This document shows positions 30,500-64,000 of a stretch of DNA of 64,000 bases, piece by piece. Within the stretch, counting starts at the first letter, position 1; the number at the start of each line of letters is the position of its first letter. Below the pieces are notes generated by a model, which saw only the letters and a list, made by a program, of their open reading frames with translations, made no database searches and was not told the DNA's origin. The stretch is from Apteryx mantelli (taxonomy: Eukaryota > Chordata > Aves > Apterygiformes > Apterygidae). The DNA is taken from NCBI RefSeq assembly GCF_036417845.1, contig NC_089978.1:134658288-134722287 (forward strand). The letters run 5' to 3'. The translations under genes and the position numbers were made by a program.

Positions 30500-31120
30500 T
30501 GTAAGGATATCTGGTTAACAGCTGTTCAACATAAAAAGACAAAGACGAGAAACAGAGAGGTAATAAGTTAAACATACAGACACACAAACCCTAACAAACA
30601 GAAGACAACAGAGAAAGTAACAGAGACCAGAACTCCTAAGACACTGATAGATGGGCCGCTACAGGAACCACTCAAGTGTAACCCTGAAGAGGGTCAACCA
30701 AAAACCTTGTAACTGATAAAGATTACCATGGGTCTTACAAGCTTCTTATGGGATGGCTGAGGTGAATTGTGGGACTGTGCAAAGCTTATTACGCAATGTT
30801 TTAAGAAGGATCATAGGAGCAAAACTTATTATGGGATGTTTAGGGGAAGGTTCAAAGGTGGGGAAAGGGAAGCATCAAGTTAGATAGGGAGGAATGAACA
30901 TGGGAAAACAAAGCAGGAAGAAATAAGGGCCCAACACCTTTAAGCTGGCTGCTGCTTAGTATGCCTGTCTGGCTGAGCCCTGCACCTGATCACCAGTCTG
31001 TCCCATCTTCTTATTAAACTCTATTTCTAACCATTTTCTCTGGATTTTTATGTGCATTTGTAATCTGCTGGCAGACTTCAAACTGGGCCACCAGTAAGTA
31101 GGACAAGAGGTTTGAGAGGC
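30500..31120 (+). mobile_element. Probable solo LTR of an endogenous retrovirus (fossil)
   Basis: A TG-starting block of about 0.6 kb with no coding capacity. It ends in a promoter- and polyadenylation-like module, with ATTAAA at 31013-31018 in a TTCTTATTAAACTCTATTTC context typical of retroviral R/U5 regions. The upstream part has three imperfect copies of a roughly 41-bp unit starting near 30742, 30785 and 30825, resembling U3 enhancer repeats. No internal gag, pol or env sequence flanks it. The boundaries and family (ERVL-like or other) are uncertain; it looks old. Confidence 0.5.
30742..30865 (+). repeat. Three-copy ~41-bp tandem repeat in the LTR U3 region
   Basis: Unit starts CTTNTTA..G..ATG recur at 30742, 30785 and 30825 (spacings 43 and 40). 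The third contains TATTATGGGATG at 30827-30838, the exact reverse complement of the CHD4-upstream 12-mer; the first contains TTATGGGATG at 30746-30755. Confidence 0.6.
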
Positions 31121-39030: not shown

Positions 39031-60400
<21,370 letters not shown>

Positions 60401-60460
60401 CCCAGCACCGCCTCTTAAAGGGGAAAAAAACCCGGCCAGGACCCGCCCCGCTCCCGCCTC

Positions 60461-60956
60461 CATCCCATAATATGCCCCAGGACCCCGGCAACAGGCCCCG
60501 CCCCATCTCCCTGGCAACCCCCCCAACTGAAACATCCCATAATATTCGCCCTCCCCTCAGAACTTCCCACTCACTGCCCGGCCCGGCATCCCATAATAAC
60601 AACCCCTCCCAGCAAGAACATCCCATAATACAACCCTCCCTCCGAGAAACATCCCATAATACTCCCCACACCCTAACCCCTTCACTCAGGCATCCCATAA
60701 TACTCGCCCCCTACCAGCCCCCCGCGCGCGCCCTAGCGCCCCGCGCCTCCGCTGCCCGGCCTGCCATCCCATAATAGGCACGTCCCCTAGCCGGCCCCCC
60801 CGGCCCGCCGCAATAACCCCCAGCACATCCCATAATAGTCATACCCCAGGCGCACATCCCATAATAGTCACTCCCTCCACACACACACCCCCCCGTTCAG
60901 GCAGGCATCCCATAATAGTCGCCGGCAGCCACCGTCCAGCCAGACATCCCATAATA
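60461..60956 (-). repeat. Homotypic array: 11 perfect copies of CATCCCATAATA upstream of CHD4
   Basis: Exact 12-mer copies (plus strand) start at 60461, 60533, 60587, 60619, 60650, 60691, 60765, 60826, 60855, 60906 and 60945. All share one orientation, reading TATTATGGGATG in the CHD4 sense. Start-to-start distances are 72, 54, 32, 31, 41, 74, 61, 29, 51 and 39. The spacers are GC-rich and unrelated to each other, so this is not an ordinary tandem repeat. Only the core is invariant, with a preceding purine-C preference such as ACATCCC. The array begins about 60-120 bases above the inferred CHD4 start site, where factor-binding sites would be expected. The binding protein is unknown. TCCCATAAT resembles half of the ZNF143/THAP11 promoter element, and CCATAATA resembles a half CArG box. 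Confidence 0.95.
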
Positions 60957-61164
60957 CTTCCAGCCACCCTCCCCACCGCCCGCAGGGCTCCGCCGCGCCG
61001 CCGCCGCCGCCGCCCCCAGCCCACCCTCGGCCCGCGCGGCGCCCCTGCCCCGCCGCCGCCCTCGGGGGCCTTTCCTGCCGCGGGGCACCGTCCCCCCCGC
61101 GCAGCCCCTAACGGTCCCGGGGCAGCCGGCCAGCTGCGCCGCCGTAGTGCTCAGGCACTGCCGC

Positions 61165-64000
61165 CCGGCTCCTGCGTGTCTCCCGGTGACACAGACTCTA
61201 GGGCCCCACGGCGGGCACCATCCTCCCCCTCAGAGGCAGCCGCTGGGGCAGCCGCTGGCCCCTGGCACTGGCTGAGACCGCCCCGGTGGGCACCCCGCGG
61301 CCTTCACTGGTGCTGGGCAGCAGCCAAAGCCAGGCATTGCTGTCCACGGGAGCCGTGGCCACACTCACACTTCCCGCACAACCCTTGATCGCACAATGAC
61401 CACACCACTGAGCTTGCCCCTCGCTGCGCACCCGCACCTGTGTCACGCTGCTCCCTCTGCCTCTCCTCGCACTGCCAGCCTCCCTGCAGCAGGGTTTGCC
61501 TGTCTGATGCCCCGCTCCGCAGTGCCCCGGAGGTCCTTCCCATGCCCACGCCTGGGTGCCCTGCTCGTCCCCTCTTTCTATATACTGAGGCAGGTAATCT
61601 GAGAGACACATATGGTGTTTATACCACGTTTTTGCCACTTCCTTCACACACATGCCAGAATCAGGCCCACGGTGCCCCATGCCAGGCTGGCACTCTGCTC
61701 TGTCACAGATACCCACAACACTGTGGTCCGTTCACGGTACCCATTGGTAGTCTGCAGCACTCTACAGCACAATCACCAGCCACCATCAGCAGCATGCATG
61801 TCAATCCCATAGTGACTCCTGTCACCTCCTGACCACACATACAGGCCTCTAGCACAGTGCATCTGCCTGTCATAAACGGCAGTACCTATAAAACTATTCC
61901 TACCCCAGGGATATGGAGAAAACCTCCAATATATTCTGTTCCTCCCTCCTGCTCTAGACATAGCCATTTTATAGCACCATACACTGCTCCCTGCTATTGC
62001 CCTCCACCAGCAAACTAATCATCACATTATATTGACATGAACAGTCCATAAAAATAAATATACCCCAATTATATACATGCAACATTATCATTAATTTCTC
62101 ATTATACAAAATCACATCCCATAATATTACCTATCCCCAATTTAGTATCTTTATAACACTATTAATCTCAATTAAGGCAGATGCACTGTACTGTCCATCT
62201 CACCCAATAAATACACAGGTGTCAAAGATTATACTCATCCCTCTTTAGATAAAAACATTCTGCATTGCCATCCCACTTCTTCTGGCACACATGCACATTT
62301 CACACAGTAGCACTGGCCCACTGCTGTAAAACACAGATTCCTGAAATACTAGTGGAGGCCTTACTGCTAACAGCCATCCTGTAATGTGATTTATACTTTG
62401 TCATGCAAATCATACCAAAAATCTGTCTCTACATGCACTGTATACATAGATACTCCATAACACTATCCATTTGCTTCTGCTGTGTGCCTTGATTTTCCAT
62501 AATGTTAGCAAACTCTTCACTATATACGTGTAGAGCCACCAGACTGCCCTCCTCCCCACCATAAGCACCTATGTGCCGAAATACTGTCAAGCTCGACCAT
62601 TTCATTCTTATGCCCCTCAACAATGTGTACTTCAATACAGTCCCGTAATGCTATCTATATATGCAGGCATTCCATAATATGACCCACCCCTCCTATGCAT
62701 ATCCTTCCTAGATTATTAGCAAAAACCAGACTGTATACTCCAAAATACTATTGCATTTTTAATCTTCTTATATGTACAGAAAATCCCACCACCCTTCCAA
62801 CCATCTGTGTTATACACACATGCAGTACATACCTGTACTCATACCTTTGCTTAAATTGCAATGACGCTGTCATTTATTTCAGATCTACAGAGGAAAAGTG
62901 GCATGAAAGAGCTATACTACAGATACTATCTATCTTCTATATGGATATGGCATAACAGTATATTCTGTGTAATAGAAATGTACGTATAATAATGCTATCC
63001 GCTCTGTACCGCCAAACTCACACAGACCACCATAGGACTTTTCATTCCCTCTTTTGCACACTGACAGCCATAATCCTCTCTAATAGAAGCTATGTGGACA
63101 GCCATGCCAAATTCCCATGCTAAGCAGACAAGCCCTAAATAGTTACTACAGAATTCTAAGTATCCCTCTTAAAATCTCACTCCTAGTGGTTTGATCACAT
63201 ATTAAAAGGCACTACACAGGCAAAGACACCATAAAGGGAGTTACTAGAGTTATCTCTACGCATACTCTGTAACACTCTTGCTGGTAGGGTTACCATCTTG
63301 AGAGGGCTGTTTACTACCAGTTATGCAATGTGTATAGCATCTCAGCCACAAAAGTGCCAAGTTTCCCAATTAGCCACCGCTTTGCTGAAATCTTTCTATA
63401 AACCACACTTGAACATATTTTTATCATTAATACTGTGCCTTTCCCACCTCACCTCCAACTCATTTTTCCTCATAACTCAGTTTATCAGTCAGCAGAAACC
63501 TTAATTTTCACTGTAAAAATTCCATGCTGAATATAAATTACAAATGAGGTGTTTTTAGCATTTGTGAGGATCAAGTAGATGGATTAAAAAAGAAAGAAAG
63601 AGACTTCTAAATGTTTTCCATTGATAACACTACAAGATAGAGTTCCAGCTGTTTGGCTGCTTTAAACTGCAAAGTTGCCCTACCTCACTGTTTCTTGATT
63701 ACTTACCAAGTTTAACTGAATCTTCTGAGTTTATAGCACTTAGCCTGGAAATAATCACAACACCATCTCTTCAATAAAATCTTCTGTACCTGCTGATCTG
63801 TGTTAACGCCCTGAAAAACATAGTACAGTTTTTTGAGGGGGAAATCCCTGCAACATTCCTCCACTTCAATGCTGTGCCTATGTTAGGGAAATCCTGATCA
63901 CCCCAAGCATTCTCTGTACACCTCTGTACAGCTCCACATCTAAGGATAGTTGGATGAAATGGGCTGTATATCCCCATGGTAACATGATGGCATGGCCTCT
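61165..64000. other. CHD4 upstream DNA without a recognised gene
   Basis: The left 0.45 kb is GC-rich. The remainder is AT-rich and contains many CCATAAT-like words. No exon of the expected next gene (LPAR5 in human) is visible. Confidence 0.5.
62115..62126 (-). repeat. Outlying perfect copy of CATCCCATAATA
   Basis: Same orientation as the array, 1.16 kb further upstream, now in AT-rich sequence. Near matches surround it: CATTCCATAATA at 62668-62679, CATCCTGTAATG near 62374, TTTTCCATAATG near 62495 and AATCCCATAGTG near 61803. Confidence 0.85.

Follow-up and report, generated by a model that had tools for sequence, protein, structure and literature searches.

What is an array of eleven identical 12-mers doing upstream of a gene start, and does it belong to a type that has been described before? 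The array lies within the 64,000-nucleotide window (the whole stretch of DNA analyzed here), and its features are as follows.

60461..60956, plus strand, array of 11 perfect CATCCCATAATA sites in one orientation, start-to-start spacing 29-74 bp
60461..60472, plus strand, site 1, closest to the CHD4 start, exact match
60533..60544, plus strand, site 2, exact match
60587..60598, plus strand, site 3, exact match
60619..60630, plus strand, site 4, exact match
60650..60661, plus strand, site 5, exact match
60691..60702, plus strand, site 6, exact match
60765..60776, plus strand, site 7, exact match
60826..60837, plus strand, site 8, exact match
60855..60866, plus strand, site 9, exact match
60906..60917, plus strand, site 10, exact match
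60945..60956, plus strand, site 11, exact match

On the sense strand of CHD4 the motif reads TATTATGGGATG. An earlier, sequence-only reading had reported eleven identical 12-mers in one orientation, without a mismatch, in 496 bp, and an exact search recovers precisely these eleven plus-strand copies. Across both strands of the window, CATCCCATAATA has 13 exact matches: the 11 in the array, one at 62115 (plus strand), and one at 30827 (minus strand). Chance is ruled out as their origin. Not a single match appears in 100 dinucleotide-preserving shuffles of the window, and the base composition of the array predicts 6.5e-5 matches over 485 positions on one strand, a generous figure because the cores themselves are counted in that composition. 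The earlier estimate that such a 12-mer is expected far less than once is thus borne out. When all 12-mers of the window are ranked by their count per 500 bp, only runs of the AC and CA dinucleotides score higher (13 and 12, respectively). The mismatch histogram within the array contains 11 sites at zero mismatches and one at four, with none at one, two, or three, indicating that the array cores are all or nothing. A TC pair follows at +13/+14 in 6 of the 11 copies and may extend the footprint of the motif; its nominal P value of 6e-5 applies to a pair picked for testing once the alignment columns had been viewed.

The gene beside the array is CHD4. Its start codon (ATG) lies at 59191 on the minus strand, and minus-strand stop-to-stop frames between ~39 and 59.2 kb encode pieces that we recognized as CHD4. 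Structure comparison was tried with two CHD4 exons, and for both the best match among solved structures (PDB) is the CHD4 chain of 6ryr: the PHD piece at 54396-54686 with an E value of 1.5e-51 and the helicase piece at 51084-51443 with an E value of 5.3e-37. SCARNA11 lies inside the gene on the minus strand (42637-42776), scoring 73.2 bits where the gathering score is 37. These observations uphold the earlier naming of the gene. Reading the sequence upstream of the start codon by eye reveals several candidate promoter elements.

39147..59191, minus strand, CHD4 gene, putative extent, running from the start codon at 59191 as far as 39147-39401, the last piece that looks coding
60336..60420, minus strand, putative CHD4 core promoter and first non-coding exon, sequence read by eye
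from 60420, minus strand, CTTTAAG, a TATA-like TTTAAG box, by eye
~60390, minus strand, GCCATTTT element, presumably YY1-like, by eye
~60340, minus strand, possible splice donor GGGTGAGG, by eye

From the TTTAAG box, the GCCATTTT element, and the possible splice donor, we infer that CHD4 transcription probably starts near 60390. The array lies 1.3-1.8 kb from the CHD4 ATG and would cover approximately -70 to -570 relative to that putative start. By either measure, its earlier placement at the CHD4 promoter is well founded.

Perfect copies would also be seen if the array were a young, functionless minisatellite-like repeat whose units match because they arose recently. Tandem Repeats Finder lends this some substance: it resolves 60587-60662 into a 31-bp unit present 2.4 times (86% match, cores counted in) and 60705-60746, inside one spacer, into a 22-bp unit present 2.0 times. 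The 15-bp flanks are also slightly more alike than composition predicts, with a mean pairwise identity of 0.40 on the right and 0.42 on the left versus an expected 0.35. Recent copying should, however, leave the spacers alike too, and among the best 12 of the 45 spacer pairs none keeps its significance once 45 tests are corrected for; without correction, four of the 45 fall below P = 0.05 (0.006, 0.034, 0.046, and 0.048) versus 2.25 expected. The sites are moreover unevenly spaced, and copies with one to three mismatches, as noted above, are absent from the array. We consider a minisatellite-like origin of this kind extremely improbable. The variable spacing and the lack of significant likeness between spacers, which are C-rich (53% C), likewise rule out plain tandem duplication as the source of the entire array, while the 31-bp unit and the slight excess of flank identity make some contribution from local duplication probable, with 60587-60662 a likely case. 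The sequence-only reading had gone further, holding that the spacers are unrelated and that simple tandem duplication offers no explanation. Its first statement stands in that no pair is significant after correction, but it passes over the four nominally similar pairs, the slightly similar flanks, and the 31-bp unit; its second applies to the array as a whole and is too strong for copies 3-5, which fall in the 60587-60662 repeat. The general picture that it drew, of a binding-site array with cores kept and spacers diverged, is right as far as one sequence goes.

Which protein would bind such sites? CHD4 is a chromatin remodeler and the motor of NuRD, and ZNF410 is a C2H2 zinc-finger protein. 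Clusters of ZNF410 motifs at CHD4 were reportedly described by Lan et al. (Mol Cell, 2021) and Vinjamur et al. (Nat Genet, 2021). Passages of three further papers place such clusters at the CHD4 promoter and at a distal element (PMC9181152, PMC9426921, PMC13398628); Lan et al. 2021 is cited in all three and Vinjamur et al. 2021 in two. According to passages of PMC9181152, the CHD4 clusters are highly conserved, and no other part of the genome holds over 10 perfect ZNF410 motifs; ZNF410 occupies just eight loci, among which high enrichment and functional occupancy are seen at CHD4 alone; and suppression of ZNF410 lowers CHD4 by ~70%. Passages of PMC9426921 present two clusters of conserved sites as the route by which ZNF410 activates CHD4 and assign to CHD4 23 of 2,894 predicted conserved ZNF410 sites, the strongest concentration. 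Unlike PMC9181152, they put all eight ZNF410 peaks in the CHD4 promoter region. For a separate data set they mention ZNF410 ChIP peaks numbering in the thousands, and they suggest broader roles, which fits poorly with a strict single-target view. Passages of PMC13398628 describe regulatory elements that cluster in the CHD4 locus and, like passages of PMC12452803, call CHD4 a highly selective ZNF410 target. In the relevant passages of PMC9181152 and PMC9426921, binding and activation refer to erythroid cells of human origin; mouse work is mentioned as support. ZNF410 finger contacts are discussed in PMC12264921, in passages that print no site, and a turtle paper (PMC13419201) names ZNF410 in a main text from which CHD4 is absent.

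The array displays the signature published for these clusters, a long motif repeated without error at the promoter of CHD4: 11 copies stand in 496 bp, where the published wording speaks of more than 10. On this ground we conclude with high confidence that it is the promoter-proximal ZNF410 binding-site cluster of CHD4. The type is already known, and the array is almost certainly the counterpart, in the present genome, of the described ZNF410-CHD4 promoter cluster. The earlier statement that no description of such an array was known is wrong, since clusters of this kind are described in PMC9181152, PMC9426921, and PMC13398628.

The sites could instead be bound by a factor other than ZNF410. We take the ZNF410 consensus to contain CATCCCATAATA; in favor of another factor, searches of main texts with partial letters in both orientations found no paper in which the letters of the motif appear alongside ZNF410. 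Searches with the motif letters by themselves or with their reverse complement returned titles unrelated to ZNF410. The location at CHD4, a count of perfect motifs above 10, and the rarity of the motif nonetheless all fit the wording used for the ZNF410 clusters in passages of PMC9181152. We judge a different factor to be very improbable.

In comparing the array with the ZNF410-CHD4 clusters, the points of likeness are the gene, the promoter position, and a single motif present in over 10 perfect copies. The array differs in coming from another genome and in being known from one sequence, whereas conservation has been reported for the published cluster. The likeness to the human cluster is one of description. 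The published distal element, which we assume to lie ~6 kb away, would fall past the right end of the window, which ends ~3.6 kb upstream of the putative transcription start. More generally, the array resembles homotypic clusters of transcription factor sites, in which many sites for the same factor sit close together in a promoter. Ordinary homotypic clusters have shorter, degenerate motifs, whereas here a 12-bp motif occurs in 11 copies without mismatch.

The array probably works in the manner published for the ZNF410 clusters. ZNF410 would recognize a long and rare motif, and many perfect neighboring copies would produce high occupancy at one place. ZNF410 bound there would raise CHD4 transcription, an effect that in print concerns human erythroid cells and that we extend provisionally to the species of the array. 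Selection for high occupancy would then maintain the cores without a mismatch and leave the spacers free to diverge, with some copies possibly having been contributed by local duplication.

Reviews single out ZNF410 as a transcription factor that, strikingly, has essentially just one gene as its functional target, and as a possible handle for increasing fetal haemoglobin. Coming from another species, a clean array would be of use in dating the ZNF410-CHD4 wiring and in showing how the sites of such a factor are kept up. The array thus serves as a supporting data point and is no new discovery.

The placement of the sites on the DNA helix offers only a hint of order. At 10.5 bp per turn, sites 1-7 (60461-60776) lie on the same helical face with R = 0.93 (P = 0.033 from 1000 simulations, corrected for the choice of run and for six periods), the subset having been picked after inspection. 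All 11 sites together give R = 0.52 and P = 0.07 at the same period.

Copies of the motif also occur outside the array. Beyond 60301-61100, the remainder of the window is expected to contain 0.005 exact and 0.22 one-mismatch copies; we find two exact (62115 and 30827) and two one-mismatch copies (62668 and 30744), along with three carrying two mismatches (2180, 51816, and 62020). One copy of each of the first two kinds lies near the array.

62115..62126, plus strand, outlying perfect copy, exact match, ~1.7 kb upstream of the putative CHD4 start in DNA of 32% GC
62668..62679, plus strand, outlying one-mismatch copy, CATTCCATAATA, from the mismatch scan

Both are located in AT-richer DNA farther upstream of CHD4, in the orientation of the array.

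A further group occupies 30744-30838 on the minus strand, between NOP2 and IFFO1. NOP2 lies downstream of CHD4; the match for its N-terminal piece is the 28S rRNA cytosine methyltransferase in the structure 8fkt. Pfam was run on five neighboring frames, giving two matches to RsmB/F methyltransferase, one to Filament, and none for the other two. The RsmB/F matches, both above cut-off, fall on two of three further NOP2 pieces. The Filament match belongs to the gene beyond NOP2 and is below cut-off (23.6 bits against a 40-bit cut-off); this gene is presumably IFFO1, the name being taken from its N-terminus. The group itself comprises one perfect copy, another with one mismatch, and a middle copy with three mismatches, counted by eye. 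Its letters give it the look of a cluster of the array motif that is weak or in decay. A joint reading, in which the genome is non-mammalian, as the sequence-only reading implies, an old ZNF410-CHD4 wiring keeps perfect sites, motif clusters come and go around the locus, and part of the array is set on one helical face, is conceivable but on the whole unlikely.

A search for a pair of motifs 10-40 bp apart in genome contigs and viral contigs returned one stretch from each, and we attribute both to coincidence. The genome-contig stretch, from a Lachnospiraceae MAG, appears by eye to consist of a short repeated unit (1,200 of 8,000 bases inspected), and the viral-contig stretch, also by eye, looks coding (501 of 10,932 bases inspected).
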